A stretch of 32,931 bases of DNA from Alphaproteobacteria bacterium. Its GTDB lineage: Bacteria > Pseudomonadota > Alphaproteobacteria > Rs-D84. Of this stretch, positions 73 through 32,501 are shown piece after piece. A program made the translations under genes and the position numbers. The notes beneath the pieces were generated by a model that was not told the DNA's origin, searched no databases, and worked only from the letters and a program-made list of their open reading frames with translations. Positions within the stretch are counted from its first letter, which is position 1, and each line of letters opens with the position of its first letter. Where the stretch lies: positions 1 to 32,931 of the forward strand of contig JAFXVB010000027.1 of assembly GCA_017534945.1 (NCBI GenBank), given 5' to 3'.

Positions 73-76
73 TAAG

Positions 77-4023: not shown

Positions 4024-4046
4024 CAAAAATATAGCGCTTTTTAAAT

Positions 4047-5283: not shown

Positions 5284-5351
5284 GGGTTTTGTGATTTAGT
5301 ATTATAAAACATTTTAACAGTTGCTTTTTTGTTATTATTGGTATAGTATTG

Positions 5352-5375
5352 TTGGATATAAAGATATCCAAAGGA
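5352..5375 (+). promoter_or_regulatory. Hairpin abutting the ribosome binding site of the first glycosyltransferase
   Basis: TTGGATAT (5352-5359) and ATATCCAA (5364-5371) form a perfect 8-bp stem with an AAAG loop. The ribosome binding site AAGGA overlaps its last base, so folding could affect translation start. A possible promoter lies just upstream (TTGCTT near 5320 with TATAGT/TAGTAT near 5343). Confidence 0.4.
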
Positions 5376-5381
5376 CAGTTT

Positions 5382-6233
5382 ATGCCAAAGAAAACACCAC
5401 GTGTTTCTGTATTAACACCAATTTACAATACAAATCCAACGCATTTGCGGGAAATGATTGAATCCATATTGACGCAAACCTTTACAGATTTTGAATTTTT
5501 AATTTTGAACGACAGCCCTGATAATAAAGAAATCGAAAAAATTGTTTTAGATTATGCAAAGCATGATAAACGCGTAAAATACGCGAAAAACGAAAAGAAT
5601 ATGGGTATCACACCGTCGCGTAATAAATTACTAAAAATGGCGGCGGGCGAATATTTGGCAATATTTGACCATGATGATATTTCTGTGCCAACGCGTTTAG
5701 AAAAAGAAGTTGCATATTTGGATTCGCATCCGCATGTTGGTGTGGTATCGGGTTGGTTGCAATATTTTGGTTTAGATAATTCTGTATGTGAAACGCCAGA
5801 AACAGATGCAGATATTCGCGTAATGACATGCGATTGTTGCTATGTTGCGCATACGGCGGCGATGATACGTAAATCTGTGCTGACTGATAACAATATAGAA
5901 TACGAAGAATTTTATACCCCGGCGGAAGATTATCGGCTGTGGGCGCGTTTAGCAGACTTTACACATTTTTATAATATTCAAGAAACTTTGGTTAAATATC
6001 GTTGGACAGGCGACAACACATCGTGCAAACAAAATAACAAACGCGAAATTGCGCGCCGCGCGATATATTTAGAATTTCGCGACAAGCACCCTGCCCTGTA
6101 TGACGAGTTCAAAAAAATGTCACCAAACACAATGTTCCGTCTTCGCCTGTTTGGCTTGCCATTACTCAAAATCAAGAATAACAAAGTCTATTTATTCGAA
6201 TTTATACCAGTTTTCAAAATTATGTGGAGATGA
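5382..6233 (+). CDS. Family 2 glycosyltransferase (copy 1 of an inverted pair)
   Basis: A 283-residue GT-A protein. The start is the ATG at 5382 after AAGGACAG. The N-terminus shows VSVLTPIYN (residues 7-15), IESILTQTFTDFEFLILND and the metal/nucleotide-sugar motif FDHDD near residue 96, typical of GT2 enzymes adding a sugar to a surface glycan on the cytosolic face. There is no membrane segment. The first 230 bases differ at only three positions from the gene at 31641-32501 on the opposite strand, and a 65-base block at 5871-5935 is also identical, while intervening and C-terminal parts diverge. This mosaic suggests recent recombination. It is followed after one base by the RgpF/HAD gene (same operon). 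Confidence 0.88.
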   Translation: MPKKTPRVSVLTPIYNTNPTHLREMIESILTQTFTDFEFLILNDSPDNKEIEKIVLDYAKHDKRVKYAKNEKNMGITPSRNKLLKMAAGEYLAIFDHDDISVPTRLEKEVAYLDSHPHVGVVSGWLQYFGLDNSVCETPETDADIRVMTCDCCYVAHTAAMIRKSVLTDNNIEYEEFYTPAEDYRLWARLADFTHFYNIQETLVKYRWTGDNTSCKQNNKREIARRAIYLEFRDKHPALYDEFKKMSPNTMFRLRLFGLPLLKIKNNKVYLFEFIPVFKIMWR

Positions 6234-6234
6234 T

Positions 6235-8946
6235 ATGAAAATATTTAAAACTGCTGAATTTTTTGATAATAATGGCCACACAAAAAAATATTATTTTTGT
6301 GGTATACGGTATTTGAAAAAAATTTGGTCTTTGTCACAGAGAACGACATACTGGTTCAAATTGAAAGTCAGCGAACATTCAAACACAACAAAATATTTAC
6401 AAAAAAGAACAAAAAAACACATAAAATGTAAACCATATGTATTTCCAAAAGGTGCTATTACACTTAATTACAAAAACAATAATTTTATATTAAAAAAAAT
6501 GCATAAAGTCGCAATTTTTGCGTCGTTTTCTGGTGATGGAAAAATTGCAGATTATGTTCTTTATTATTTGAAAGAATTAAAAAAGGTTTGTGATGCAATT
6601 ATTTTTGTCGCAGACAATCCAATATTTCCCGCGGAAGTTGAGAAAATCAAAGATTTGGTAATTTATGCAAGTTTCAAACGACACGAGGAATATGATTTTG
6701 GCTCGTATAAACGTGGTTATAATTATGCGAAAAAGGCAGGTATTCTAGAAGAAACAGATGAACTTGTTTTGTGCAATGATTCTTGTTTTGGTCCTGTGTA
6801 CCCATTTCAAGAAATTTTTTCTAAAATGGACAAAAATAAAGATTTAGATTTTTGGGGATTGGTGTATAATACAGACGTAAAATTACATTTACAGTCTTAT
6901 TTTTTAGCTTTCAAAAAAAATGTTATTGAATCTAATGCTATACATGACTTTCTAAAACGAGTGCAACACGAAGACGATTTTTGGGACGTTGTATATAAAT
7001 ACGAATTTGAATTTACAGATTTTTTAATAAAACGCGGATTTAAATGTGCAGGCTTTGTGCCGCAAGAAATGCCCGAAACACAATTTGCGTTGGGACGTGC
7101 AGGACACAATAACCCAACTGTGTTTCCTCTGACCTTAATAAAGAAATATAATTTTCCACTAATAAAAGTCAAATGTTTTACAGATGGTTATACATTTGCA
7201 TTAGAAGAACCGATCATCAAAGTATTAGATTTTGTAAAAAAACAAAATCCAGAGTTGTATAAAAATATAATTAGCTACTTAAAACACAAAGATTTATACA
7301 ACAGTATTTATGCTAACAATATTGATGCTATGCTTGATAAAGCAGATGTTGTCAGTTTTGATGTGTTTGATACATTGTTGATAAGACCATATATAAAGCC
7401 AACTGATTTATTTGCTCACATGGAACAAATTTATGATATTCCAAAATTTGAACAATGCAGAATACAAGCTGAATCAAGTGCTAGAAAAATTTATGCTGTC
7501 AAAGAAGATATTACGTATGATGATATCTATACACAAATATTACCAAAATATAAGTCATACAAGTCAAAAGAATTATTATTTGAAAAACAGGTCTTGCGTA
7601 TTCATCCAAAAAACTATCTGATATATAAAAAGGCATTAAAAAAGCACAAAAAAATAATTGCTGTCTCGGATTCTTATTTCCCTACAAAATTTATCAAAGA
7701 TATTTTACAAAGCAACGGTATCACAGTTGACAAAGTTTATGTTTCAGGAGATTATAATAAAACAAAAGCCAGTGGTACTCTGTTTGAACAAGTGTTAAAA
7801 GATTTTAATATACAGCCTAACCAGTTATTACATATCGGTGATAATGAATACAGTGATGTCCAAATTCCACAAGAAAAAGGAATTATGGCTTTTCATGTAA
7901 AAAGGTATTTTGATTGGTTTGCACAATATGGTGGAAATCGTAAATATGTCGTCTTTTATAACAAAAAGCCCTGTCTAGAAAGAAGTGTTATAGTATCTCA
8001 GATAGCGCGTCACCAATTAACAAATAGCTCTTCATATTGGAATGACATTGGATATTGTCTTGCCGGGCCTTTGGCTTATGGATACACACAAAAAATAATG
8101 AAAGAAACAAAAAGAAATAATATTGATTGTCTATTATTTGTTGCGCGGGACGGATATATACTGAAAAATGTATACAATATGTTGGAAAAACAACCAATAG
8201 AAAATCATTATATTTATGCTCCCAGAATATTAAATTTGAAATGTTTTGGCGATTATAGCAATAACCCAGAATATCACAAAAAATTGATTGGATTATTAAC
8301 CGATGTTTTGTCTGGTGCAGAAGTAAGGTTTACACCAGAACAAAATATTAAAATAGAAAAGTATTATAAGGAAAATAAGGATGAATATGAAAAGTATTTA
8401 AAAACACTAAATATAAAAGGACACAGAATCGCGTCTGTAGATATGACAACTGGTGCATTTAGTTCTGAAAAATTTTTAATCAAATTTTTTAAGGACAGGT
8501 ACGCGTTTGGATTCTTTAGTGCTACATTTGTTAACGATTTATATGTTAAATATATCTCGTATATGGATAAATTAATAAAACCGGAAAAACAAGAAAGTTT
8601 AATGATGTTGATGGAATTGTTAATAACCGCTCCAGAGTTGCCAGTTGTCGGTATATATGCAAATAAGCCCGTATATAAAAAGGGGGATGTATACGATATT
8701 CAGCGCGTTGAGATTGTTAAACAAATAGAAAAAGGTGTCAATGCTTTTTGCCAAGATTATCTAGATATATTCGGTTTTACAAAATATTTGCCTGTTTCTA
8801 TGGAAACTAATTTGGATTTATTAGATGCATATTGTACCAATATGTCAAATATTGATACAAAATATCTAAAATCCGTTTATCATGCTACGGATATAGGTAA
8901 CGAACAATATGTTTCTTTATATGACGAGATTGTTAAACAGATTTAG
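6235..8946 (+). CDS. RgpF-like glycosyltransferase fused to a HAD-superfamily domain
   Basis: A 903-residue protein; the ATG at 6235 follows the previous stop by one base. After a short unassigned N-terminus, residues ~90-300 resemble rhamnan synthesis protein F (KVAIFASFSGDG, YDFGSYKRGY, LVLCNDSCFGPV), a family that extends rhamnose-rich or related polysaccharides. Residues ~370-560 form a HAD-like domain with D376-x-F-D379-T-L, a VSDSYFP segment and HIGDNEYSDV, resembling large predicted hydrolases found in polysaccharide loci. The C-terminal ~340 residues (LLFVARDGYIL, IASVDMTTGAF) are unassigned but typical of the same family. Strong A/T third-position bias and many lysines fit an accessory glycan locus. 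It shares a bidirectional terminator with the convergent fibre gene. Confidence 0.78.
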   Translation: MKIFKTAEFFDNNGHTKKYYFCGIRYLKKIWSLSQRTTYWFKLKVSEHSNTTKYLQKRTKKHIKCKPYVFPKGAITLNYKNNNFILKKMHKVAIFASFSGDGKIADYVLYYLKELKKVCDAIIFVADNPIFPAEVEKIKDLVIYASFKRHEEYDFGSYKRGYNYAKKAGILEETDELVLCNDSCFGPVYPFQEIFSKMDKNKDLDFWGLVYNTDVKLHLQSYFLAFKKNVIESNAIHDFLKRVQHEDDFWDVVYKYEFEFTDFLIKRGFKCAGFVPQEMPETQFALGRAGHNNPTVFPLTLIKKYNFPLIKVKCFTDGYTFALEEPIIKVLDFVKKQNPELYKNIISYLKHKDLYNSIYANNIDAMLDKADVVSFDVFDTLLIRPYIKPTDLFAHMEQIYDIPKFEQCRIQAESSARKIYAVKEDITYDDIYTQILPKYKSYKSKELLFEKQVLRIHPKNYLIYKKALKKHKKIIAVSDSYFPTKFIKDILQSNGITVDKVYVSGDYNKTKASGTLFEQVLKDFNIQPNQLLHIGDNEYSDVQIPQEKGIMAFHVKRYFDWFAQYGGNRKYVVFYNKKPCLERSVIVSQIARHQLTNSSSYWNDIGYCLAGPLAYGYTQKIMKETKRNNIDCLLFVARDGYILKNVYNMLEKQPIENHYIYAPRILNLKCFGDYSNNPEYHKKLIGLLTDVLSGAEVRFTPEQNIKIEKYYKENKDEYEKYLKTLNIKGHRIASVDMTTGAFSSEKFLIKFFKDRYAFGFFSATFVNDLYVKYISYMDKLIKPEKQESLMMLMELLITAPELPVVGIYANKPVYKKGDVYDIQRVEIVKQIEKGVNAFCQDYLDIFGFTKYLPVSMETNLDLLDAYCTNMSNIDTKYLKSVYHATDIGNEQYVSLYDEIVKQI

Positions 8947-8951
8947 AATAA

Positions 8952-8978
8952 AATGGCGGTTAAACCGCCATTTTTTAT
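8952..8978. terminator. Bidirectional terminator between glycan operon 1 and fibre gene A
   Basis: AATGGCGGT (8952-8960) and ACCGCCATT (8964-8972) form a perfect 9-bp stem with a 3-base loop, flanked by T runs on both strands. It serves the plus-strand operon (stop at 8946) and the minus-strand fibre gene (stop at 8975). Confidence 0.85.
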
Positions 8979-10252
8979 GATATATCTCCATAATCTTGTA
9001 AATTACATACTTGTCGCATTGACCAATTGGATATCGCCCCGGACGTTGTATTTGATTTTGCTAAAACACAACAATAGAATATGTCATTATTGTGCATCCA
9101 CAGATTTTTTGATGCGTTATATAACCAATAGTTCGTCAGGCTATTTTCTATTGTGCCATCAGGTTTTATCACGTATAATAAATTCGAAGATATATTTGAT
9201 GGATTTGTCAGTGTTTTAACAGTATCTGTCGTAACGATTGTATTATTTAATCTACCATCTGGATCCTTGCCATTAGGAATTAAGGCGGTTATTCCGGGTA
9301 AAGCAAATACTGTTGAGCCAATATAGCCGAAACCGTTGAATACATAATCTATGGACGATATTGATCCATTTGATACTGTAAAGATAGCAACCGGTAAACT
9401 TTCTGTTCTGGCTGGCGTTGTGGGATTGTCCAAGAATAATTTTATTGTATTATTTGTTGTGTCATACCATACAGTATATATTGTTCCCGGGGCGGTTGAG
9501 CCACTTACGGTATTAGATATAGATATAAAATCCACAGATACTTGAGAAGCTTTTACAAATAACATATATTGACCGTTATTTGTTTCTGTTATGTTTATAT
9601 CGTTTGTTATTATTTGTTCATCAAAAATTCCAACCCCGTTTGGTACGTAAACTTTAGAATTTTTCTTCAACGATAATGTTCCATTATTTAATTCAATATT
9701 TATGGTTTGTGGTATTTTTGTAAAACAATTTGTTATATACGAGCAAAAATCATTTTTTGTCATTATATAACCTTTTGCGATTTCTTCATTAAAATCAGTT
9801 ATTGCTTGCTTGACCGCCACAATTTCATCATGGATTGCTGAAATTCGCGCCAATAATGTGGTTGTGGATTCTTTGTCTGTGATTTCACTGTATTGCGTTT
9901 GAAAAGCGTTTAATTCATCTTGCAAATCTTTTAACACTTCCATCATATAATTCATGTCTTGGTTCAATGTTGTTGGAGCGATTTTTTCCAATGGCTGGTA
10001 ATCAACAATGCGTGTTAATGGCAAACTCCGCGCGATTGTAATACTGTCCAACGCCGTTGGTGCGGTGTCAAATACGACTTTGCCGCCGGTGTATGGAATA
10101 TCTGCATCTAAACCCGCCGATGTCCCGATGATGTTGTATTCGGTTGCGGGTGCGCCGTTTTTCGTGACAATTATGTCTGTGTTTTCAAAATATGGGAAAT
10201 TAAATGCGAATTCTGTGGTTTCGCCGTTTCCCATGTATGATACTTTTTGCAT
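8975..10252 (-). CDS. Phage tail-fibre-like protein A
   Basis: A 425-residue protein from the ATG at 10252, which follows GGAGTTTAC. A longer in-frame start would run back into the leader hairpins. Residues 1-147 match fibre B and follow the pattern of T7-type tail-fibre N-termini: an aromatic beta-rich YMGNGETTEFAFNFPYF opening, TIARSLPLTRIVDYQP, then a helical LNQDMNYMMEVLKDLQDEL segment. The C-terminal part is beta-rich and contains FNGFGYIGSTVFALPG, a motif I associate with receptor-binding ends of gut phage fibres. No signal peptide is present and no capsid, tail-tube or lysis gene is nearby. It may be a prophage, tailocin or gene-transfer-agent relic, or a co-opted adhesin. It has its own promoter and a structured leader. 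Confidence 0.65.
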   Translation of the reverse strand: MQKVSYMGNGETTEFAFNFPYFENTDIIVTKNGAPATEYNIIGTSAGLDADIPYTGGKVVFDTAPTALDSITIARSLPLTRIVDYQPLEKIAPTTLNQDMNYMMEVLKDLQDELNAFQTQYSEITDKESTTTLLARISAIHDEIVAVKQAITDFNEEIAKGYIMTKNDFCSYITNCFTKIPQTINIELNNGTLSLKKNSKVYVPNGVGIFDEQIITNDINITETNNGQYMLFVKASQVSVDFISISNTVSGSTAPGTIYTVWYDTTNNTIKLFLDNPTTPARTESLPVAIFTVSNGSISSIDYVFNGFGYIGSTVFALPGITALIPNGKDPDGRLNNTIVTTDTVKTLTNPSNISSNLLYVIKPDGTIENSLTNYWLYNASKNLWMHNNDIFYCCVLAKSNTTSGAISNWSMRQVCNLQDYGDIS

Positions 10253-10277
10253 GTAAACTCCTTTTGTTATAACAAAG

Positions 10278-10305
10278 ACCCGTCTTTGCGTGCGCAAAGA
10301 CGGGT
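10278..10305 (-). terminator. Fibre A leader hairpin C
   Basis: Perfect 13-bp inverted repeat ACCCGTCTTTGCG/CGCAAAGACGGGT with a 2-base centre, followed on the minus strand by CTTTGTT. It is the strongest stem in the leader and lies about 25 bases upstream of the start codon. Confidence 0.65.
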
Positions 10306-10306
10306 A

Positions 10307-10341
10307 ATAAAAAATTCCACTTCGCCAAGGCTATGTGGGAT
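10307..10341 (-). terminator. Fibre A leader hairpin B
   Basis: Minus-strand ATCCCAC pairs with GTGGAAT (one mismatch) around a loop containing CCTTGG, then six Ts. The same element, with a perfect stem, occurs in the fibre B leader at 21476-21503. Confidence 0.55.
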
Positions 10342-10369
10342 AAAAAAACAGCCGACAAAATGTCCGCTG
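10342..10369 (-). terminator. Fibre A leader hairpin A
   Basis: Minus-strand CAGCGGAC pairs with GTCGGCTG (one mismatch) around a 5-base loop and is followed by seven Ts. It begins about five bases after the predicted transcription start. Confidence 0.6.
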
Positions 10370-10380
10370 TGTATGCGGGT

Positions 10381-10409
10381 ATTATATCATAAATCGCGCG
10401 AAAAAGCAA
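10381..10409 (-). promoter_or_regulatory. Promoter of fibre gene A
   Basis: Minus-strand TTGCTT (10404-10409), a 17-base spacer and a perfect TATAAT (10381-10386). Boxes and spacing are identical to those of the fibre B promoter. Predicted start near 10374 gives a leader of about 122 bases. Confidence 0.75.
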
Positions 10410-10436
10410 TATCTTTCGTGTAATCGTAAATTTTAC

Positions 10437-21336: not shown

Positions 21337-21377
21337 TGCCGGATATACAACAATCAAACAACTGTTAAAGCGTATTG

Positions 21378-21406
21378 TTGCTTTCAAATGCGATTTGTGT
21401 TATAAT
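21378..21406 (+). promoter_or_regulatory. Promoter of fibre gene B
   Basis: TTGCTT (21378-21383), 17-base spacer, perfect TATAAT (21401-21406). Boxes and spacing match the fibre A promoter exactly. Predicted start near 21413, leader ~116 bases. Confidence 0.75.
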
Positions 21407-21417
21407 ATATGCATATT

Positions 21418-21446
21418 CAGCGGACGTTTTGTCGGCTGTTTTTTTT
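21418..21446 (+). terminator. Fibre B leader hairpin A
   Basis: CAGCGGAC pairs with GTCGGCTG (one mismatch) around a 5-base loop, then eight Ts. It is almost identical to hairpin A of fibre A, which has seven Ts. Confidence 0.6.
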
Positions 21447-21450
21447 ATTA

Positions 21451-21475
21451 CCATCGCTTTTTTGCGGTGGCTTTT
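21451..21475 (+). terminator. Fibre B leader hairpin C'
   Basis: CCATCGC (21451-21457) pairs with GCGGTGG (21464-21470, one T-G) around six Ts, then CTTTT. Its sequence is unrelated to hairpin C of fibre A and it sits second, not last, in the leader. Confidence 0.5.
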
Positions 21476-21508
21476 ATCCCACATAGCCTTGGCGAAGTGG
21501 GATTTTTT
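21476..21508 (+). terminator. Fibre B leader hairpin B
   Basis: ATCCCAC (21476-21482) and GTGGGAT (21497-21503), perfect 7-bp stem with a CCTTGG-containing loop, then six Ts. The ribosome binding site AAAGGAG follows 12 bases later. Confidence 0.65.
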
Positions 21509-21528
21509 GTTATAACAAAGGAGTTTAA

Positions 21529-22395
21529 ATGCAAAAAGTATCATACATGGGAAACGGCGAAACCACAGAATTCGCATTTAATTTCCCATATTTTGAAAAT
21601 TCAAATATTGTCGTTACCAAAAACGGCGCCGCTGCAACTGGATATGACATCATTGGAACATCGGCGGGATTGGATGCAGATATTCCGTACACCGGCGGCA
21701 CAGTTGTATTCGAAGTTGCACCAACGGCGTTGGACAATATTACAATCGCGCGGCAATTGCCATTGACCCGTATTGTTGATTATCAACCTTTGGCGAAAAT
21801 AGACCCGACGACATTAAATCAAGACATGAATTACACAATGGAAGTGTTAAAAGATTTACAAGATGAATTAGACGGGCTGATGACTCAATATGCAGAAATT
21901 GCAGATAAAGAATCGACAACCACTCTGTTGGCGCGGATTGCCGCGATTCATGATGAAATTGTTGCGATTGATGCAAAAATTACTGCATTGGGCGATGTTT
22001 CGCAAATCCGCAGTGATATAACCGATTTGAATACACGAACAAATAATTTGTTGGATTATGTAATTGAATCACAATTACCAACCGCAGAAAATGACTATAC
22101 TTGGTATCGTAAATATAAATCTGGATGGGTCGAACAAGGCGGTTATATAATGAATGGCACCGGCAGTTATGGTAAAAAACTTGTGAATTTAATTGTTGAA
22201 ATGGCAAATGTTTATTATTACATAGATGCAGGCATACGTTGGGGTAATGAATCCCATTGGTACACATCAAACACCGCCGCCGGTTTAGCCCAAGTCACAG
22301 ATGTATCAGGCCCAGTCACAGAGGTCACAACAACATCATTTAAATTACAAGGCTTTTCAAGTCATTGTTGGATGGCGTGTGGTATGGCCGCATAA
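21529..22395 (+). CDS. Phage tail-fibre-like protein B
   Basis: A 288-residue protein. Its first 71 coding bases are identical to those of fibre A and residues 1-147 remain highly similar (aromatic beta-rich opening, then a helical ETLKDLQDEL-type segment, seen here as MEVLKDLQDELDGL). The C-terminal ~140 residues are unrelated to fibre A: a short coiled region (VSQIRSDITDLNTRTNNLLD), then YTWYRKYKSGWVEQGGYI, a motif I associate with phage tail-fibre tip domains, and a Trp/Tyr-rich end. No signal peptide, no neighbouring phage structural genes. It follows tRNA-Thr and converges on the heptose glycan operon. Its promoter and leader match fibre A. Function as a receptor-binding protein is inference. 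Confidence 0.65.
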   Translation: MQKVSYMGNGETTEFAFNFPYFENSNIVVTKNGAAATGYDIIGTSAGLDADIPYTGGTVVFEVAPTALDNITIARQLPLTRIVDYQPLAKIDPTTLNQDMNYTMEVLKDLQDELDGLMTQYAEIADKESTTTLLARIAAIHDEIVAIDAKITALGDVSQIRSDITDLNTRTNNLLDYVIESQLPTAENDYTWYRKYKSGWVEQGGYIMNGTGSYGKKLVNLIVEMANVYYYIDAGIRWGNESHWYTSNTAAGLAQVTDVSGPVTEVTTTSFKLQGFSSHCWMACGMAA

Positions 22396-22420
22396 AAAAA
22401 GCCCGCATCCCGCGGGCTTT
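22396..22420. terminator. Bidirectional terminator between fibre B and glycan operon 2
   Basis: AAAGCCCGC (22398-22406) and GCGGGCTTT (22412-22420), perfect 9-bp stem with a 5-base loop. Seven Ts follow on the minus strand. Confidence 0.85.
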
Positions 22421-22422
22421 GA

Positions 22423-24429
22423 TTATTTTCTAAATATTTTCCTGAATAATTTTTTTATCTTGCAATACGCAGAAAACTGTTCATATATAAACCGCGGCAT
22501 GCGTTTAATATCACACCTATACGCTTTTTTAAGCAACTTTGTCATCCACTTGCTACCCGTTATAGGCGTTGACAACAATGAATCATTGTTAAAGATAGAC
22601 AAATAATCTTTAAATGAAAGAGCCTCGCCTTTTTCAGAACGCAAACAAATGAAATTAGGTGTTGTTTCAAAAGTGTATTTGAAAAACACTTCGTTCATTT
22701 CTTTAATGCAAGTTTTTGCAGACCGACAATTTGAATTCCAATGTTTTCTGCTTTTTGCGAAGACCGTTTCTGCAACATCCTGTACAGATGATGCGACATA
22801 TCCCGTAGTACAAGCATAAGAAAAGCGTCCAAGTTTAGATGCCTTGATAATGGAACAACATGCCAAATAAAAATGCACACTATCACTGATATGAGAAATT
22901 TCATCTTTATCAATAATGTTCAATATTTCTTTTTTGAATAATGCACAACTTCTAGAAAACATTGTTTCTATAAGGAAGAATTGTTCATCTTTTTTGTGCC
23001 AATCAATACCATACGATAAAGAAAAACTTAAAAATTCATCACGCAAAATAGGATGCGAATTAAGAGTAATATATCCTTTATCTTTTTTTAGATAACAACC
23101 AGAATAAGCAAACAGAGTATCAAAATTCTGTAAAATGTCTGCATTTTTATAAATGTGTCGTTGGTGCATTACAGAATCCGCATCAATAAACATAAAAAAT
23201 TCGCCTTTTAATAATGGAATTGCTTGCAGAAAAGCCCTTCCTTTGAATTCTAAATCCGTTTTAACAAACGTATCATTTTTATGAATTTTTAAATCTTGAT
23301 TGCTAATTACAATCATATTGATGTTTTTATAATATTGTCTTGCTATCTGTGCACACACTTTATCATAATCGTTTTGGGAATAAGCAAAACAGATTACATC
23401 AATAACTTTATTTTGTTTTTTTGCATCACATATCGCTGTTTTATTTTTCTTTATAGCATCAATGGTGTCTTTGACCATATTATCCAATGCTAATTTCTTT
23501 TTGAATATCTCATTGGAACGTTTTGCCATTTCATAGGCTTCATCAGGATGTTCATTTGACCAATTGAGAATATCTAAAATTTTCTGTGAAGCTTCTTCTT
23601 CTGGCAAATTATTATCAATATAAAATACACTGTCGCCAAAATAATCCCTTACAAATTTATTGTCATCAGATATTATCAATGCACCCGCCGCCGCCGCTTC
23701 GTATGTTCGATTTGACACCCCATTTGCATCATTATGCATTGGTGAATTTATAGCCAAACAACATCCGGCTTGATTTATTTTTTCAATTATAGATTTACCA
23801 TCGAAAGGAATTTCACCTTTATAACAATCAAAACCAGCCCATAAATTTTTAATACCATAAACTTCTCGTGGACCATATATTTCTATTTGTTTAGATTTAT
23901 CCAAATTTTGTAATAATTTTCCATACCGCATTTTTTCTGCGTTACTGCGCTCAAAATTTATACCGACATAGAATAATTTTCTATCTGTTTGCTTTCTTGC
24001 AGACAAAGAAAAATCCAAAGGAACCGACGAACCAATAAAAGGAATATCATAAGTTGTTATGTTGCATATTCTGTTGAATACATCTTGTTCATATGTGCAA
24101 CCAAAAGTATCATAACTGTTAAATGCTTTTATTTCGAGTAATGTTTGAAAATTTGCCACAAACCCCAGCGGCGACCAATGAAAAAACATAGAAAATATAT
24201 CTGGATAAGTAATAACCGCTAAATCTAGTGTATTATATGTGAACATAAAATCTGGATTTGTTTCTTCGATATACTTTCCTTTGTCGGCGCCTTCTGTAAT
24301 CACGAAACCATCTTTATCGAACACAACAAGATCGTGTCCTTGCTTGTTAAAACAATGTTCCAACCTAAGCAAAGTTTCCTGTTCCGCGTTTTTCATTTCC
24401 CCAAAAATATTATAAAAAGCAATTTTCAT
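22423..24429 (-). CDS. Two-domain glycosyltransferase
   Basis: A 668-residue protein. Residues 1-~340 resemble CgeB/GT-B-type enzymes: Rossmann-like KIAFYNIFGEM opening, YVGINFERSNAEKMRYGKLL, IEIYGPREVYG, and the sugar-nucleotide-binding region NGVSNRTYEAAAAGALIISDD with its conserved Glu. Residues ~350-570 resemble a GT-A fold: DVICFAYSQNDYDKVCAQI, MIVISNQDL, and a metal-binding FIDADS motif. Two transferase domains in one chain suggest it adds two sugars in succession, as in some O-antigen and capsule enzymes; this is inference. Last gene of the operon; AAGGT precedes its start and the gap to the cupin gene is 11 bases. Confidence 0.78.
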   Translation of the reverse strand: MKIAFYNIFGEMKNAEQETLLRLEHCFNKQGHDLVVFDKDGFVITEGADKGKYIEETNPDFMFTYNTLDLAVITYPDIFSMFFHWSPLGFVANFQTLLEIKAFNSYDTFGCTYEQDVFNRICNITTYDIPFIGSSVPLDFSLSARKQTDRKLFYVGINFERSNAEKMRYGKLLQNLDKSKQIEIYGPREVYGIKNLWAGFDCYKGEIPFDGKSIIEKINQAGCCLAINSPMHNDANGVSNRTYEAAAAGALIISDDNKFVRDYFGDSVFYIDNNLPEEEASQKILDILNWSNEHPDEAYEMAKRSNEIFKKKLALDNMVKDTIDAIKKNKTAICDAKKQNKVIDVICFAYSQNDYDKVCAQIARQYYKNINMIVISNQDLKIHKNDTFVKTDLEFKGRAFLQAIPLLKGEFFMFIDADSVMHQRHIYKNADILQNFDTLFAYSGCYLKKDKGYITLNSHPILRDEFLSFSLSYGIDWHKKDEQFFLIETMFSRSCALFKKEILNIIDKDEISHISDSVHFYLACCSIIKASKLGRFSYACTTGYVASSVQDVAETVFAKSRKHWNSNCRSAKTCIKEMNEVFFKYTFETTPNFICLRSEKGEALSFKDYLSIFNNDSLLSTPITGSKWMTKLLKKAYRCDIKRMPRFIYEQFSAYCKIKKLFRKIFRK

Positions 24430-24440
24430 ATCATACCTTT

Positions 24441-24803
24441 TTATTTCAAAATATCTTTTTCGCCGTTTGGTAATTCAACACCGCGGTCATACATTGAAAT
24501 CAATGCTGTGTCATGTGTATAATCAAAACTGTGAGTGATATTTGGGTGTATTATAAAAAAGTCGCCCGCCTTTATATCGTATTCCGCTGTTTCACCTGTT
24601 TCGTTATGGCGCAAAGATAACCTGAATCCGCCAGAAATGACAAAAAACGCCTCTTTATTTAACACATGATAATGGTCGCCACGAAATGCGCCCGCGCGCG
24701 ATGTTATATAATTTACCTGAGACCAACCGTCATGCACCAATTGAGTTAAAGTGCCGCGGTCATCTGCGAAAGTAAAATCTGGATTTATAAATTCTATTAA
24801 CAT
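24441..24803 (-). CDS. Small cupin protein, sugar-modification associated
   Basis: A 120-residue single cupin: GDHYHVLNKEAFFVISG (residues ~42-58, HxH...E metal/ligand motif 1) and GDFFIIHPNITHSF (~80-93, motif 2). Such cupins in glycan operons act as nucleotide-sugar epimerases or isomerases, or as the C-terminal half of CapF-type reductases. It begins one base after the SDR gene, so the two may work as a CapF-like pair. Reaction not provable here. Confidence 0.75.
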   Translation of the reverse strand: MLIEFINPDFTFADDRGTLTQLVHDGWSQVNYITSRAGAFRGDHYHVLNKEAFFVISGGFRLSLRHNETGETAEYDIKAGDFFIIHPNITHSFDYTHDTALISMYDRGVELPNGEKDILK

Positions 24804-24804
24804 T

Positions 24805-25686
24805 TTATAACTCTAACTGTATGGTTTTTAAATTTAATAATTGTTTTATTTTTGTGTTGTCTAAAATCGCGGTTTCTGCGCGTTTCGCTGTAAATATTCC
24901 GTTTGCAGTTTTAACAGAAATCGGTTTTATTAATTTCGTATCCAGTCCATACTTATTCGCTAAAGCAATTGCCGCATCGTATTTTGACATACCTTTATCC
25001 GCCGCGATATTCAGTACATGTTCATCGCATGTGCCAAACTTTTCAATTATATCAATCAAGAATCCAGCACATTGATTAAAACTGAGTGTTGAACGATATG
25101 AATCATCAAACATTTCAACCGTTTTGCCACTTTCCATATCCGCCCGAATTTTATCAAAGAAATGCGGACGATTTGGTACCAACGACGGCCCAAATATAAA
25201 TGGAAAACGAACAACATTAAAGTTTTTCGCCAATGTTATTTGTTCCGCCAAAACCTTTTGACGACCATATGTATTTACAGGCGCACATTTATCTGTTTCG
25301 GTAAATTTTTTATCTTTGTGTCCTTCGCCATATACGGTATCAGTCGAAGAATAATACAAACATTTTGCATTATGAAACGCATTGACCGCATTTGCCAAAG
25401 CCGTAATGTTTATATTCCATGCATATTCTGGATTTTCCTGAACTTTATCAGGATGATGATATGCAGCCAGATAAATAATTTTTGTATCATTATCCACAGA
25501 TTTTGCCAAATCGTTCACCGCATCCGCGTCTGTGATATTCAACAGTTTCCAATCAACACGATTGTTTGCGTCACAATTCGGCAATGAATTGGAATATGTG
25601 GCGATAATTTTTTCGTCCGTTTTTTCCAGCACGTTTTTAATGCAATAACGCCCCAGAAAACCACTGGCACCAACAATCAAATACAT
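24805..25686 (-). CDS. NAD(P)-dependent extended-SDR nucleotide-sugar reductase/epimerase
   Basis: A 293-residue protein with the Rossmann motif GASGFLG (residues 6-12), catalytic Ser in YYSSTDTVYGEG and the Y-x3-K motif as YGRQK. Overall pattern is RmlD/GalE-like. In this operon it most likely reduces or epimerises the 4-keto GDP-sugar made by the dehydratase at 29742-30779, perhaps with the cupin. It lies between the cupin (1-base gap) and the GT75/STELLO-like gene (1-base gap), indicating tight coupling. Confidence 0.85.
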   Translation of the reverse strand: MYLIVGASGFLGRYCIKNVLEKTDEKIIATYSNSLPNCDANNRVDWKLLNITDADAVNDLAKSVDNDTKIIYLAAYHHPDKVQENPEYAWNINITALANAVNAFHNAKCLYYSSTDTVYGEGHKDKKFTETDKCAPVNTYGRQKVLAEQITLAKNFNVVRFPFIFGPSLVPNRPHFFDKIRADMESGKTVEMFDDSYRSTLSFNQCAGFLIDIIEKFGTCDEHVLNIAADKGMSKYDAAIALANKYGLDTKLIKPISVKTANGIFTAKRAETAILDNTKIKQLLNLKTIQLEL

Positions 25687-25687
25687 T

Positions 25688-26797
25688 TTATTTTACCTTT
25701 ATATTTCTCATTGTTTCAAACCATATTTTATGTCCATCAATTACATGATTTACATATGCGCGTTTCGCCACAGGTAATGTGTCGTTTGGCAAAGAATCAA
25801 TTTTTTCTTTTAATTTACCGAATAATTCTTCGCCTGATTCTAAATAAGTTTTGCCCGTAAGTGGAATTTCACGCAACCATTTGCAAAAATCAGTTGTCAT
25901 TTTTGTTCCCATTTCTTCAACATGTGCATCAACCCAATAATCATGATCATTGCGGATTTGTTTCACCAATGGTTGACCGTATGAAACATAATCGCCCATG
26001 TGCCATGCAATTCTTTCAACAATATACGATGACCAAATATCATCAAAACGGCCAATATCTGGAACCAAGAAATACACCGGCACCATATCACGATGTATTG
26101 CGGTATTTTGTGAATTAAATGGTGAATATGTATTCTTGTCTAAGGCATAGTTGTTGTCTTTTTTATATGACACAACATCAATTGGCGCCGCAAGACGCGT
26201 CACCGCATCAATATCTGGATCGCCCAACCAAAATCCAGCATTGACCACAGTGCGAATATTTTTTGTTTCGCGTTTAATGTCATGAACTTCATCAATTCTG
26301 TCCACCCAAGAATAACCACGCGGATAAAACTTTCTTCCTTGTCTGTCTTGTAAATCTTCACAAATATTGTACCAACCGGTGGGTGAAGAAACGGTTTCCA
26401 TATCAATTCTTTTACCCAAGTTCAAATGATGACCAACATAATCATTGCACGCAATATAATTATCATCATCAATCAAAACAATAACATCAGCCCCCGCATC
26501 ATATGCCTTTAAAATAGCAACCTGACGTCTTTGAATACAATTCCATGGTAAAAATCCGTTCAATTTCGGGAATTTTTTCATGTATTCATTTTGATCGTTC
26601 ACATCCATGAATAATACAGGAATATTATATTTTTCCTGTAAAGATTGACAATATTCTTTGGCCGCCACCGGTGTTTTTTTATCACCAGTTATAACAAAAT
26701 CAACATCATTTTGACGATTATGTTTTATAACATCTTTGATATAATCTTCAATTAAATATGGTACATGTATTGTTGTTGTCGTAATTGTTGTTTTCAT
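25688..26797 (-). CDS. STELLO/reversibly-glycosylated-polypeptide-like glycosyltransferase
   Basis: A 369-residue protein with TTTTIHVPYLIEDYIKD at the start, a metal-binding LIDDDNY segment near residue 108, and NAGFWLGDPDIDAVTRL near residue 187. The last motif is typical of the DUF288/STELLO and GT75 (UDP-arabinopyranose mutase/RGP) group. It probably handles a nucleotide sugar in glycan assembly; mutase versus transferase activity cannot be decided. One base separates it from the SDR gene downstream. Confidence 0.65.
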   Translation of the reverse strand: MKTTITTTTIHVPYLIEDYIKDVIKHNRQNDVDFVITGDKKTPVAAKEYCQSLQEKYNIPVLFMDVNDQNEYMKKFPKLNGFLPWNCIQRRQVAILKAYDAGADVIVLIDDDNYIACNDYVGHHLNLGKRIDMETVSSPTGWYNICEDLQDRQGRKFYPRGYSWVDRIDEVHDIKRETKNIRTVVNAGFWLGDPDIDAVTRLAAPIDVVSYKKDNNYALDKNTYSPFNSQNTAIHRDMVPVYFLVPDIGRFDDIWSSYIVERIAWHMGDYVSYGQPLVKQIRNDHDYWVDAHVEEMGTKMTTDFCKWLREIPLTGKTYLESGEELFGKLKEKIDSLPNDTLPVAKRAYVNHVIDGHKIWFETMRNIKVK

Positions 26798-26827
26798 TTT
26801 ATATTACTCCTTGAAGTTTTTTTTATT

Positions 26828-28048
26828 TTATCTTTGATTTATTTTTATAATCTTGTTCGCGATTGTTTTGGGCGACCCGCGCATATTGCGTTCATTAATT
26901 ACACGAATTGTTTCACCGATACCCGCAGCACGCCCAGCCAATATATCGTTTTCATTATCACCAACCAATGTCGATTGAGATAAATTAATATTATGTTCTT
27001 TGGCAGCACGCAATATCATACCTAGGTTTGGTTTGCGGTAAAAAGAATTACGATTATACGGTGGCATCCCATCGATATGATATGGACAATAATATTCCGC
27101 CGTTATTTCACACCCCATATCTTTGAATTTATTATGTATGAATTCAGTCAACAATTTATAATCTTGTTCAGTGTATTTGCCTTTTGCGATACCGGCTTGG
27201 TTCGTAACAACAACTAATTTATACCCGTCTTGCGTATATTTTCTGCAAAAATCAAAAATTCCTGGTATGAATTTACAATCATTAATTTTATGTAAATATC
27301 CAATATCTTCGTTTATTACACCGTCCCTGTCCAAAAATAACGCACGATTTTGGGCATTACCATAAATCACAGATTTTAATTCATGTTGTGCCGCCGCATA
27401 ACTTTCCGGTAAACCAATGTCGATAAAATAATCGTCGGCAACCATATATGTCGGTTTAATTTGAGGAATTATTGGTTCCAAAATATCTTTTTCAAAAGAA
27501 AATTTCTGTGGCAATTTTTTGTCGAATAAATCACGATTGATTTTATAAATTCCGGCGTTAATAAGCCCCGGTTGTGCAACATCTTGTTTTTCGTGATAAT
27601 CAATAATATGACCGTCATGCACATCCACACGACCGTAACGATTTGCATTATCAACCTGTTTCAACATGACCGCCAATTTTTCATTTTTATTTTGCGACCA
27701 AAAATGAGAATAATCAGCGGCGATATAACTGTCGCCATTTAATACCAACGCGTTGTCCAGATTATACAAATCAAATGCCTGTTTTATCGCACCACCCGTT
27801 CCCAAAGGTTCTTGTTCCACAGAATATCGAACAGGAATCCCTAAAAAATTATCTTTGAAATAATTTTGGATAATTTCTTTTTTATACGACACGCATAAAA
27901 CAAAACGCGCCGGATCCAAGAAACACAGTTCCCGCATCAATAATTCTAAAAAAGGTGTTCCATCAATATCAGCCATAGGTTTTGGAACATCACGAACCAC
28001 AGATTGCAAACGCGTTCCAAAACCGCCAGCCAAAATTACAATATTCAT
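26828..28048 (-). CDS. Bifunctional heptose-1-phosphate guanylyltransferase / heptose-bisphosphate phosphatase
   Basis: A 406-residue fusion. Residues 1-~230 are an HddC-like nucleotidyltransferase (LAGGFGTRL at 6-14, KPM at 23-25, GTGGA at 83-87, LNGDS at 103-107). Residues ~235-400 are a GmhB-like HAD phosphatase (nucleophile D240 in FLDRDGVIN, TNQAG at 282-286, VGDNENDI at 362-369). Together they dephosphorylate D-glycero-alpha-D-manno-heptose-1,7-bisphosphate and activate heptose-1-phosphate with GTP. The zinc loop keeps C321-P-Y-H324 but the usual C-x-C before RKP reads F-Y (336-337), so zinc binding may be lost or altered. It overlaps the hddA gene by four bases (ATGA). Confidence 0.88.
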   Translation of the reverse strand: MNIVILAGGFGTRLQSVVRDVPKPMADIDGTPFLELLMRELCFLDPARFVLCVSYKKEIIQNYFKDNFLGIPVRYSVEQEPLGTGGAIKQAFDLYNLDNALVLNGDSYIAADYSHFWSQNKNEKLAVMLKQVDNANRYGRVDVHDGHIIDYHEKQDVAQPGLINAGIYKINRDLFDKKLPQKFSFEKDILEPIIPQIKPTYMVADDYFIDIGLPESYAAAQHELKSVIYGNAQNRALFLDRDGVINEDIGYLHKINDCKFIPGIFDFCRKYTQDGYKLVVVTNQAGIAKGKYTEQDYKLLTEFIHNKFKDMGCEITAEYYCPYHIDGMPPYNRNSFYRKPNLGMILRAAKEHNINLSQSTLVGDNENDILAGRAAGIGETIRVINERNMRGSPKTIANKIIKINQR

Positions 28049-29115
28049 CTTGTTGTTCCAATTTCGTTGTGTGCCTGTTGTAAATGGATAAAATCACGTT
28101 TTTCAAAAACAGATTTATCGTATTCTTTTGGTGCATAGTAAATAATTTGTGACCCTTGGTCGTCAAATTTAAACGGAACATAAATTAAATTACGCAACGC
28201 TTTTTTGATTGCTTTTTGATTTTCTGAGGTTGCATAGAATAAAATAAATCCACCACCACCGGCACCCAAAATTTTGCCACCCAATGCACCATTATCCATG
28301 GCCGTTTGGTAGATTTGGTCAATCAAAGATGTACTGATTTTATCGGTCAAAGAACGTTTTAACATCCATGTTTCATGCAACATACGACCAAAATCATTTA
28401 AATCTTCGTTTTGATTTGTCAAAATTTTTTCTGCTTCGCCGACCATTTGTTGCATCCTGGTCAATTGTGCGGTTTTTTCCTTGGCAGATTTTACCTGTTT
28501 TTCAGCAATTTCCGAAGATGTTCGCACAACACCTGTAAAGAACAACATTAAATTGTTATTTAATTCTTGTTTTCTTTGGTCGCCTATCAATACTGGATTC
28601 ACAGAAAAAGAACCATTATTATTGATATGAATATGGTTTAATCCCCCATATACAGCCGCAATTTGATCTTGGATTCCGCCGTTTTCAGCCAATATTTCAC
28701 GTTCCAATTTAATTGTTTCTTTGGCCAAACCGTATCGTGTTATCATTTGTCCTTTTAATGCGTAAATTCCTTCTATTAAACCCGCACAAAAAGATGATGA
28801 CGAACCCAATCCAGAACGCGCCGGTAAATCACATTGATTACTGATTTCAACCCCTTGGGTGACATCGTAATATTTCAAGGCCGCACGAACCGCGTTGTGT
28901 TGAATTTGGTCAATAGTTTGTGGGTATTCCATAATTTGCCATGCAATACGATTACGATATTCAACATGAAACGGTGGCAAATACCGACAAGAAATATAGT
29001 TGTAATGATTTATCGTTGTTGATAAAACATCACCACCATGTTGTTCATACCATGTGTGATAATCTGTGCCACCACCAAAAAAAGATATACGGTATGGTGT
29101 TCGTGTAATAATCAT
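28045..29115 (-). CDS. hddA: D-glycero-alpha-D-manno-heptose-7-phosphate kinase
   Basis: A 356-residue GHMP kinase. The N-terminus RTPYRISFFGGGTDY is characteristic of sugar-1-kinases of the HddA/FKP type, the ATP loop is LPARSGLGSSSSFCAG (near residue 100), and the third GHMP motif is GALGGKILGAGGGGFILFY near residue 275. It phosphorylates C1 of D-glycero-D-manno-heptose-7-phosphate in the GDP-heptose route. Located between gmhA and the fused hddC/gmhB gene, in pathway order. Confidence 0.92.
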   Translation of the reverse strand: MIITRTPYRISFFGGGTDYHTWYEQHGGDVLSTTINHYNYISCRYLPPFHVEYRNRIAWQIMEYPQTIDQIQHNAVRAALKYYDVTQGVEISNQCDLPARSGLGSSSSFCAGLIEGIYALKGQMITRYGLAKETIKLEREILAENGGIQDQIAAVYGGLNHIHINNNGSFSVNPVLIGDQRKQELNNNLMLFFTGVVRTSSEIAEKQVKSAKEKTAQLTRMQQMVGEAEKILTNQNEDLNDFGRMLHETWMLKRSLTDKISTSLIDQIYQTAMDNGALGGKILGAGGGGFILFYATSENQKAIKKALRNLIYVPFKFDDQGSQIIYYAPKEYDKSVFEKRDFIHLQQAHNEIGTTR

Positions 29116-29127
29116 TTTATACCCCCT

Positions 29128-29727
29128 TTATTTGGTCTTTCCAAAGAAATGATTTTCGACGATACCGCAAATCATATGACCGCATGCAATATGCATTTCT
29201 TGAATATTATTTGTTGTGTTTGACGGCACATTTAAAACAATATCCGCCGTATCCTTCATCGCACCACCTGTGGCACCAGTGAACGCAACAGTTCTAATTC
29301 CTTTGTCCCGGGCAACATTAAAAGCATTTATAATGTTTTTAGAATTTCCAGATGTAGAAATTCCAACCAAAACATCCCCAGCGTTTCCAATACCACGCAA
29401 TGGGCGCGAAAACACAAAATCATATCCATAATCATTGCCAATCGCAGTCAACGCAGATGTATCCGTTGTTAAACTTAGTGCCGGCATAGGGTTTCTGTCG
29501 ATTTTATAACGCCCCATCAATTCAGCAGCCAAATGTTGCGAATCCGCAGCCGACCCACCATTGCCACAGAATATAACTTTGTTTCCATGTGCCAACGCAT
29601 CAATCCAAGCATTTGCAATTTTAATAATCGTTCCAGTGTGTTGTTGTTTTAACATCACAAAGTTGTTTGAAATCACATCAAATGCATTCTCTATCTCCAT
29701 CACATACTTTGCATTTTGTTGTGTCAT
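29128..29727 (-). CDS. gmhA: Sedoheptulose-7-phosphate isomerase
   Basis: A 199-residue SIS-domain protein of typical length. FCGNGGSAADSQHLAAELMGR (near residue 52; the Ser and the catalytic Glu-65-type residue are present) and GISTSGNSKN are the family signatures; a HIACGHMICG segment near residue 180 supplies the second catalytic His. It converts sedoheptulose-7-phosphate to D-glycero-D-manno-heptose-7-phosphate, the entry step of heptose synthesis. Confidence 0.95.
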   Translation of the reverse strand: MTQQNAKYVMEIENAFDVISNNFVMLKQQHTGTIIKIANAWIDALAHGNKVIFCGNGGSAADSQHLAAELMGRYKIDRNPMPALSLTTDTSALTAIGNDYGYDFVFSRPLRGIGNAGDVLVGISTSGNSKNIINAFNVARDKGIRTVAFTGATGGAMKDTADIVLNVPSNTTNNIQEMHIACGHMICGIVENHFFGKTK

Positions 29728-29741
29728 GTCATTTCCTTTTT

Positions 29742-30779
29742 TTATCTTTGTAAAAATTTTTCACCGCGACCGATGCGTTCACGCCAATAATTCAATAAAT
29801 CGTGCATAGTTTTTTCGTATGGAATCACAGGTTCCCAACCGGTATGTTCTTTGAATTTACGACAATCTGGGACTTGTAAATCTGCATCAATTGGGCGCAA
29901 TCTTTCTGGGTCTGTTTCGATTTTAATTTTGTCTTTCATTGGTGAAAAAGAAATCAAAGTATTCAAAGTGTCGCCAACTTCGCATGTATATGAACCACCA
30001 ATGTTATAATATTCGCCTGGAATTGGATTTACCGTAACCAACATATAATATGCGCGAACCGCATCACGAACATCCGCATATGTCCGCAAAGATTTTAAAT
30101 TACCAACCTTTACAACCGGTGGAATCAAACCTTTTTCAATCATAGCAATTTGTTTTGCAAATGTAGATTCATGAAACACATCACCACGACGCGGACCTGT
30201 ATGTGTGAACATACGGGTTGTCATAACCGGCATATTATATGCTTCGGCATAATAGCGTCCCAATAAATCTGTACCAACCTTGGAAATTGCGTATGGTGAT
30301 GCGGGATGGAAAGGACATTCTTCGTGAATACCGGTTTCTGGTTTTTTTGCCGCCGGTATTTTTCCAAACACTTCGCTGGATGCGCATACATGTATCACAG
30401 GTTTATAATTTTTATCATTTTGTGAAACAAAACGAACACTTTCCAACAAACGCGCCGTCCCTAAAATATTTGTATTCAAAGTATCAATTGGTGCTGTAAA
30501 ACTTGTTTGTGGATAACTTTGTGCCGCCAAATGAAAAATATAATCTGGTTTAATATTTTGCATTGCTGTAATCAAAGAAGTTTGGTCATTTAAATCAGCA
30601 TATTCAAAAAACACCCTGTCTTTATTATTCGCGCGTTCCAGCAAATGCGACACATTGTCCAAAGGACTGCGCCAACGGCATACGCCATGCACATCCCAAT
30701 CTGTATTTTCCAACAAGAAATCACAAAGGTGTGAACCAACCATACCGGTAATTCCGGTTATCAACGCTTTCTTAGTCAT
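29742..30779 (-). CDS. GDP-sugar 4,6-dehydratase (Gmd/DmhA-like)
   Basis: A 345-residue extended SDR. GITGMVGSHL (residues 8-17) is the cofactor loop, FHLAAQSYPQTSF and SSEVFGK carry the GMD-type active-site Ser/Glu, and YAISKVG holds the Tyr and Lys. RMFTHTGPRRGDVF and NIGGSYTCEVGD are typical of GDP-mannose 4,6-dehydratases. In a GDP-heptose operon the likelier substrate is GDP-D-glycero-D-manno-heptose, giving a 4-keto-6-deoxy intermediate as for DmhA of Yersinia. GDP-mannose remains possible. It overlaps the upstream glycosyltransferase gene by four bases. Confidence 0.85.
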   Translation of the reverse strand: MTKKALITGITGMVGSHLCDFLLENTDWDVHGVCRWRSPLDNVSHLLERANNKDRVFFEYADLNDQTSLITAMQNIKPDYIFHLAAQSYPQTSFTAPIDTLNTNILGTARLLESVRFVSQNDKNYKPVIHVCASSEVFGKIPAAKKPETGIHEECPFHPASPYAISKVGTDLLGRYYAEAYNMPVMTTRMFTHTGPRRGDVFHESTFAKQIAMIEKGLIPPVVKVGNLKSLRTYADVRDAVRAYYMLVTVNPIPGEYYNIGGSYTCEVGDTLNTLISFSPMKDKIKIETDPERLRPIDADLQVPDCRKFKEHTGWEPVIPYEKTMHDLLNYWRERIGRGEKFLQR

Positions 30780-31636
30780 TTTTTATCCTTTTTTTGTTTT
30801 AAAATTTTTTTGTAATGCATAACCCACAAAAACAATGGGTTGCCAAACATTTTCATCAACCCGCGATAAATGTATTTGTCCGTTATAAATGGCTTAGCAA
30901 TACTTTCAACAATTTTGCGTTTTGCTAAATTTTTGGTACGCGTTGTCATTTGTGCAGACTTTATAAAAGTCCAAACGGCATCACATGCGGGTAAAACGTC
31001 TTGCTTCAATTTGTTGGCATATTCAGGTGTCCAACCAAATGTTTCGTATGAATAATAGGTGTCGGGGACAGTAATTAATTTTCCGTAATATAACGCACGA
31101 AATATAAATAAATTATCTTCCCAGCGTACGCCTTCCATAAATCGTATATGGTAAGTTTTTATTAACTGTGATTTAAATAATTTATCAAAAGCGGCACCGT
31201 TTTTCAAAATAGACAACTTATCATGATATGTGGAATAAATGGCCGATTTTTTTAACCAATTTCCCTGTTTAATTTGTCCCAAAGCAATATCACAATTGTT
31301 CACATTTGCCGCATTAAATAATTTTTCATAAAAGTCAGCATCGATTGTATCATCTGCTTCGACAAAACCAATCCATGTTCCTGTGGCACAATCCATACCC
31401 ATATTACGCGCACGCCCAGGCCCCAAATTATCAATTTGTTTAATAATTTTTATACGCGAATCTTTGATTGATTTTAATATATCCCAAGATTCGTCATCAC
31501 TTTCTTTGTAAACAATAATTATTTCCAAATTTTTATATGTTTGCGCCAACACAGAATCAATACATCGGCGTAAAGTATCAGCACTGTTGTATACTGGGAT
31601 AATAACACTAATCAAATCTGTGTATGGGTGTTTCAA
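30776..31636 (-). CDS. Family 2 glycosyltransferase
   Basis: A 286-residue GT-A enzyme: ISVIIPVYNSADTLRRCIDSVL (residues 9-30, cut here to its ordered strands), nucleotide-binding NLGPGRARNMGMD and metal-binding EADDT near residue 95, then a GVRWEDNLF segment typical of the acceptor half. A basic C-terminus (KKILKQKKDKK) may touch the inner membrane. Sequence is unlike the upstream glycosyltransferase, so it probably forms a different linkage. Four bases separate it from the upstream gene. Confidence 0.88.
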   Translation of the reverse strand: MKHPYTDLISVIIPVYNSADTLRRCIDSVLAQTYKNLEIIIVYKESDDESWDILKSIKDSRIKIIKQIDNLGPGRARNMGMDCATGTWIGFVEADDTIDADFYEKLFNAANVNNCDIALGQIKQGNWLKKSAIYSTYHDKLSILKNGAAFDKLFKSQLIKTYHIRFMEGVRWEDNLFIFRALYYGKLITVPDTYYSYETFGWTPEYANKLKQDVLPACDAVWTFIKSAQMTTRTKNLAKRKIVESIAKPFITDKYIYRGLMKMFGNPLFLWVMHYKKILKQKKDKK

Positions 31637-31640
31637 TTAT

Positions 31641-32501
31641 TTATCTCCACAGCATTTTGCAAATTGGAATGCATTCAAATAACACAATCCAATTGTTCTT
31701 TATTTTGAGTAAAGGAATAAAACCGAATAAACGCAACCGGAACGTAGTCCCAGGAACCATTACCTTTTCTGCCCAACGACGATATTCAGGATATTTTGAA
31801 GATATTGCCATACGAATATTTGCCGCCGCTTCTTCACGTGCATCGTTCATACGTTTTGATGTATTATTTTCAAACCAACGGTAATGAATCATGGTTTCTT
31901 GAAAATTATAAAAATGTGTCACATCCATTAAACGTGTCCACAGGCGATAATCTTCCGCCGGGGTATAAAATTCTTCGTATTCTATATTGTTATCAGTCAG
32001 CACAGATTTGCGTATCATCGCCGCAGAATGTATAACAAAACAATTTTCTGTTAAATAAATACGAATATTTGAATCTGTTTCCGGGGTTTTGCACATATCA
32101 TCGTAATTGTCGCCAAAATAATGTGCCCAACCCGATACCACACCAACATGCGGATGCGAATCCAAATATGCAACTTCTTTTTCCAAACGCGTTGGCACAG
32201 ATATATCATCATGGTCAAAAATCGCCACATATTCGCCCGCCGCCATTTTCAGCAATTTATTCCGGCTTGGGGTGATACCCATATTCTTTTCGTTTTTCGC
32301 GTATTTTACGCGTTTATCATGCTTTGCATAATCCAAAACAATTTTTTCGATTTCTTTATTATCAGGGCTGTCGTTCAAAATTAAAAATTCAAAATCTGTA
32401 AAGGTTTGCGTCAATATGGATTCAATCATTTCCCGCAAATGCGCCGGATTTGTATTGTAAATTGGTGTTAATACAGAAACACGTGGTGTTTTCTTTGGCA
32501 T
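31641..32501 (-). CDS. Family 2 glycosyltransferase (copy 2 of the inverted pair)
   Basis: A 286-residue homologue of the gene at 5382-6233 on the opposite strand, with the same VSVLTPIYN start and FDHDD metal motif. The first 230 bases (32501 down to 32272) differ at only three positions from copy 1. Residues ~125-160 and the C-terminal third differ, which could change acceptor specificity. AAGGGGG overlaps the stop of the serine recombinase gene ten bases upstream, so the two are co-transcribed and probably translationally linked. Confidence 0.9.
   Translation of the reverse strand: MPKKTPRVSVLTPIYNTNPAHLREMIESILTQTFTDFEFLILNDSPDNKEIEKIVLDYAKHDKRVKYAKNEKNMGITPSRNKLLKMAAGEYVAIFDHDDISVPTRLEKEVAYLDSHPHVGVVSGWAHYFGDNYDDMCKTPETDSNIRIYLTENCFVIHSAAMIRKSVLTDNNIEYEEFYTPAEDYRLWTRLMDVTHFYNFQETMIHYRWFENNTSKRMNDAREEAAANIRMAISSKYPEYRRWAEKVMVPGTTFRLRLFGFIPLLKIKNNWIVLFECIPICKMLWR

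Follow-up and report, generated by a model that had tools for sequence, protein, structure and literature searches.

What particle, if any, is served by two phage-type fibre genes, here fibre A and fibre B, that lie in a stretch of bacterial DNA where no further phage structural gene is apparent? The stretch, hereafter the window, comprises 32,931 nucleotides of the genome of a gut bacterium, Candidatus Enterousia (G000; 46 contigs totalling 909 kb, completeness 90%). Enterousia is placed in the order Rs-D84 of the Alphaproteobacteria, with genomes of roughly 1 Mb or less (PMC12306168). A first-pass annotation of the window had regarded the two as orphan fibres, each with a conserved virion anchor and an exchangeable tip, that might be domesticated or supplied in trans to a prophage, tailocin or gene transfer agent (GTA). 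The reading we favour, as probable rather than established, is that they are receptor-binding proteins of a domesticated podovirus-like GTA, with tips that are exchanged as cassettes together with glycan genes; packaging, docking, glycan binding and co-expression are inferences within that reading.

The genomes studied are metagenome assemblies of uncultured bacteria, and DprA is present in 36 of 40 of them. Elsewhere in the window (35-2630) a gene that by eye resembles a C5-cytosine methyltransferase lies beside one that by eye resembles a response regulator, perhaps a restriction or defence pair.

Fibre genes of the window

Table 1. Features of the window that concern the two fibre genes, with positions counted from its first nucleotide
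Feature	Position	Strand	Description
Glycan genes convergent with fibre A	5349..8946	+	29 bp from fibre A; family 2 glycosyltransferase and RgpF (rhamnan synthesis) protein
Fibre A	8975..10252	-	N-terminal anchor of podoviral type (about residues 1-157), then a coiled linker and a long FNGFGYIGSTVF-type tip
Leader of fibre A	10253..10419	-	Promoter TTGCTTTTT...TATGATATAAT (matches the fibre/module motif with a score of 35.4); terminator-like hairpins between promoter and ATG
Leader of fibre B	21375..21528	+	TATAAT at about -128, then terminator-like hairpins, palindrome TTGTTATAACAA, ribosome-binding site
Fibre B	21529..22395	+	Same anchor as fibre A; WYRKYKSGWVEQGG-type tip
Tip domain of fibre B	22042..22395	+	Tip type also found behind the RRG adaptor in other genomes
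Bidirectional terminator	22398..22420		Separates fibre B from the glycan operon that faces it
Ten-gene glycan operon convergent with fibre B	22423..32501	-	28 bp from fibre B

It had been claimed that the two genes begin identically, continue with similar N-termini and end in unrelated sequence, and this proved correct throughout: the leading 71 coding bases are identical, read from the ATG at 10252 (minus strand) in fibre A and from that at 21529 in fibre B, the anchors are 81% identical over residues 1-156, and the C-termini are unrelated, their ends being as previously quoted. The further N-terminal paralogues that the annotation proposed searching for are represented by one gene, on another contig of the same genome (G000:C37:29879-30355). 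The shared N-terminus cannot be put down to chance, because the anchor profile was found in 163 of the 201 genomes of the order. A tRNA-Thr gene (21210-21285) lies just upstream of fibre B and is a possible integration landmark.

The anchor matches phage tail proteins of PHROG 1640 (5e-13), and against the phage T7 tail fibre N-terminal domain (PF03906) it scores 14.1 bits, under the Pfam gathering score of 25.2. Confidence in the AlphaFold model of fibre B is limited to the N-terminal part, the predicted fold of the tip being unusable (pLDDT <50). A Foldseek search with the anchor model matched fibre domains of podovirus tail complexes (LME-1, Carin1, P-SCSP1u and Kp7), a likeness between a predicted fold and known ones that supports an anchor working like that of T7, and nothing beyond this.

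A podovirus-like module elsewhere in the genome

The description of the fibres as orphans holds within the window but not for the genome as a whole, where the recommended search for a cluster of tail structure genes found a complete podovirus-like module on contig C42 (locus L088). The module has no fibre of its own, which supports the suggestion that fibres are supplied in trans to a domesticated particle. It encodes a capsid protein (PF19821, 1e-73), a T7-type scaffold, a portal (PF12236, 4e-82), a terminase split into ATPase and nuclease halves, tail-tube proteins and lysis genes, an endolysin-like gene among them. A tailocin, one of the options offered, is not what was found, capsid, scaffold, portal and terminase all being present. 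That the window is itself a degraded prophage can also be rejected, as it contains no relic genes and an intact module lies on a different contig; with paralogues in existence as well, neither of the results that were to have refuted the annotation was obtained.

The module looks domesticated and GTA-like because the capsid gene is present in 178 of the 201 genomes of the order (121 of the 126 of good quality), purifying selection acts on it and a host gene lies inside the module. Candidatus Enterousia is among the named records that have relatives of this capsid. In modules of the genus three genes occupy the opposite strand between the terminase halves: host dnaB, one for a helix-turn-helix protein and one more. 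Departure of the whole module would therefore take dnaB with it. Mean amino-acid identity is 84% for the capsid and 78% for DnaB, with a dN/dS of about 0.08 for both (synonymous sites are near saturation), and capsid and portal both roughly match DnaB in conservation. The terminase motifs seem intact by eye; several genomes seemed to lack the C half of the terminase, but this was traced to a gene-calling artefact. No autonomous replication or integration genes were recognised in the module, the flanking genes of which are annotated only in part. Two criteria for a GTA are fulfilled, namely a phage-derived cluster with capsid, portal and terminase, and its maintenance as a host trait under purifying selection.

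It would seem very improbable that the module is instead a decaying or occasionally mobile prophage of which the fibres are relics. Relatives of the capsid do occur in 81 of 380 sampled genomes of other alphaproteobacterial orders, and in IMG/VR contigs related to the module the terminase is mostly one unsplit gene, so the wider capsid family may include true prophages. However, the module encloses dnaB and is found as one copy in nearly every genome, its intact genes are conserved across the order under selection about equal to that on DnaB, and the fibres are open reading frames with conserved leaders.

Fibres inside and outside the module

Roughly half of the genus genomes examined have a short anchor gene of about 182 aa within the module, flanked by c1 and by the terminase ATPase half; this gene is here termed the slot fibre. 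In G000 c1 ends almost where the terminase begins, with no fibre remnant. The survey covered the 32 genus genomes in which the capsid gene is present and the slot can be scored; for two slot genomes the state was inferred from a 185-aa fibre whose contig is broken. Slot fibres were present in 18 of these genomes, all 18 of which also have separate RRG-type tip genes; the 14 genomes without a slot fibre have no RRG tips (0/14). Long trans fibres, in which anchor and tip are fused, show the opposite distribution, with 12 of the 14 slot-less genomes carrying them as against 3 of the 18 slot genomes. A DnaB plus h12 tree requires at least 8 changes in the state of the slot, 4 of them forced by well-supported branches. 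Two genomes (G009 and G031) have the capsid gene and no detectable fibre. The notion of a conserved virion anchor with exchangeable tips, as originally put forward, is strengthened by this presence of the same anchor within a structural module, and likewise by the podovirus-fibre-like anchor model.

The anchor is not unique to the module, because a 47-kb metagenomic contig of prophage type (IMGVR_UViG_3300033463_010496; L359, L366, L367, L369) encodes an 842-aa fibre with an anchor that is 63% identical. The genes that follow this fibre are of prophage type and belong to a different phage, with lysis genes, a terminase of its own and a possible tail-sheath gene. Such a contig, together with tips that look like those of phages, is what would be expected if the fibres served ordinary phages or prophages or acted as decoys, the anchor circulating among phages and the glycan loci changing under phage selection. 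We give this little credence, since the trans fibres adjoin glycan operons and not phage genes, are associated with the absence of a module fibre, and have a promoter type and leader in common with the module.

Leaders and predicted control

A promoter motif, consisting of TTGATTTTT, a spacer and TATGATATAAT, was built from the fibre leaders and, for fibres, scored leave-one-out. It matches at 44 of the 58 fibres and 13 of the 22 tips, and at module loci its 11 matches all lie before the first module gene, G000 included; there were no matches across 738,440 background positions. The leader of fibre B resembles that of fibre A by eye, with a promoter that scores under the cut-off of the motif scan. 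In fibre B the ribosome-binding site is preceded by the perfect palindrome TTGTTATAACAA (21505-21528), 7-mers of which recur in more than 30 of the 58 fibre leaders. A weaker match (score 29.4) at 4033 on the minus strand, upstream of the ORF at 3251-3901, perhaps marks a gene of the same regulon.

Terminator-like hairpins are found in the leaders of 56 of 58 fibres, 18 of 22 tips and 14 of 21 first module genes, compared with 7 of 94 control genes that have a divergent neighbour. It is the position of these leader hairpins that is kept, not their sequence. The GTA cluster of Caulobacter is under antitermination control through a binding element located between -35 and -10 (PMC11150451). By analogy the fibres and the module of Enterousia may be controlled by antitermination, an inference for which there are no expression data.

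Glycan operons and exchange of tips

Both fibres of the window converge on glycan genes (Table 1), a link that the first-pass annotation had not noticed, as it had not the leader hairpins. The ten genes beside fibre B encode glycosyltransferases, sugar epimerase/dehydratases, a nucleotidyltransferase-HAD fusion, a GHMP kinase and a SIS isomerase. For 52 of 56 trans fibres, and likewise for 17 of 21 RRG tips, the gene on the 3' side is convergent, in most cases at a distance of tens of base pairs; a divergent 5' neighbour is found for 24 of the 56. The 3' neighbours are rich in glycosyltransferases, RgpF, TupA, WavE and sugar dehydratases, and the 5' neighbours are housekeeping genes. Each glycan locus of the window also has one of two family 2 glycosyltransferases (5349-6233 and 31641-32501) with near-identical N-terminal halves, a possible point of recombination between the two loci. 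A second class of RRG tips with a different C-terminus (L314, at 16196, and L315, L316 and L317) is followed by a same-strand gene of 413-429 aa, with no convergent glycan operon.

Similar tips tend to keep the same 3' neighbour, a gene of at least 60% identity being common to 10 of 18 similar-tip locus pairs as against 147 of 3142 (permutation p = 2e-4). Similar-tip pairs also have their 5' flanks in common more often than expected (5/18), and Fisher and binomial values overstate independence because the loci share ancestry. A clear view of the boundary comes from the C37 fibre of G000 and an RRG tip of G001, in which the tips are 99% identical, the glycan operons about 83% identical in DNA and the 5' flanks unrelated; here homology breaks off within the fibre gene, at the edge of the tip. 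Three further pairs (L350/L307, L053/L309 and L036/L054) have similar operons without common 5' flanks, and in L350/L307 and L036/L054 the DNA similarity continues into the tip. Two candidate markers from the window were discarded: the middle domain of tip A occurs in about ten genomes with other 3' neighbours at the loci examined, and the glycosyltransferase beside fibre B occurs in only 3 of 200 genomes, in one of them near its fibre.

The same linkage of tip and operon is predicted if the particle is a weapon against non-self, killing or lysing other strains, with the linked glycan operon shielding the producer from its own tips as in tailocin/O-antigen pairs; indeed, the fibre type of Pseudomonas syringae tailocins correlates with an O-antigen gene (PMC12208367). 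We think this unlikely, though it remains worth considering: capsid, scaffold, portal and both terminase halves are kept and conserved, with terminase motifs intact by eye, and a pure tail weapon would have no need of them. Whether self or non-self is targeted is itself inferred, as the linkage of tip and glycan fits both.

A proposed domesticated particle

Under the reading that we favour, in which the fibres belong to a domesticated GTA, the module on C42 would make the particle, and fibres A and B would be supplied to it in trans as its receptor-binding proteins. The anchor may dock on the tail-tube proteins of the module, for which direct evidence is absent, and the tip may bind the glycan made by the neighbouring operon. 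An antitermination switch is envisaged as turning on module and fibres together, and the particle as packaging host DNA. Swapping a tip-plus-operon cassette would then shift surface and particle specificity together, such that delivery stays among kin. That the particle is a GTA rather than some other virus-like particle is inferred, no particle, packaged DNA or transfer having been observed.

A broader generalisation can be offered only tentatively and may well not hold: that of a podovirus-derived GTA across the whole of this order of genome-reduced gut Alphaproteobacteria, with tips that travel with the operon for their receptor glycan, a role in self-recognition or kin compatibility, a single antitermination regulon and two interchangeable architectures, one with an anchor and a separate tip and one with the two fused. 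If true, bacteria that have lost much else have retained a podovirus-type gene-transfer-like particle, and how GTAs choose their recipients becomes testable. A receptor-binding tip physically linked to a surface-glycan operon would couple lock and key directly at the genetic level.

Comparison with known systems

Close parallels are the alphaproteobacterial GTAs RcGTA and CcGTA, which, as is proposed for the module, are domesticated, conserved clusters of phage structural genes that need separate loci for the particle. The tail fibre and head spike of RcGTA bind capsular polysaccharide (PMC10218006), and CcGTA is controlled by activation plus antitermination (PMC11150451). The Enterousia module differs from both in being podovirus-like (PF12236 portal, PF19821 capsid and T7-type scaffold), in having its terminase split around dnaB and in its numerous, variable receptor-binding genes with their linkage to glycan operons, and DNA packaging has not been shown for it. 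In Bartonella, also an alphaproteobacterium, BaGTA is a retained cluster that includes genes for capsid, portal and terminase as well as fibre-like ones, but glycan-linked tips are not described in the available portion of its account (PMC3610622). The FpGTA of Faecalibacterium is from a different phylum, and the accessible part of that report does not describe glycan-linked trans fibres (PMC12946183).

Pairs of tailocin and O-antigen in Pseudomonas resemble the present case in that fibre type correlates with surface-glycan genotype (PMC12208367), yet these tailocins are headless and have their fibre in the tailocin region, whereas Enterousia tips adjoin the glycan operon and are exchanged with it. 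Finally, the N-terminal anchor of T7-like gp17 offers a likeness at the level of the fibre domains of podovirus tail complexes, with the difference that the Enterousia fibres are encoded apart from the virion genes.
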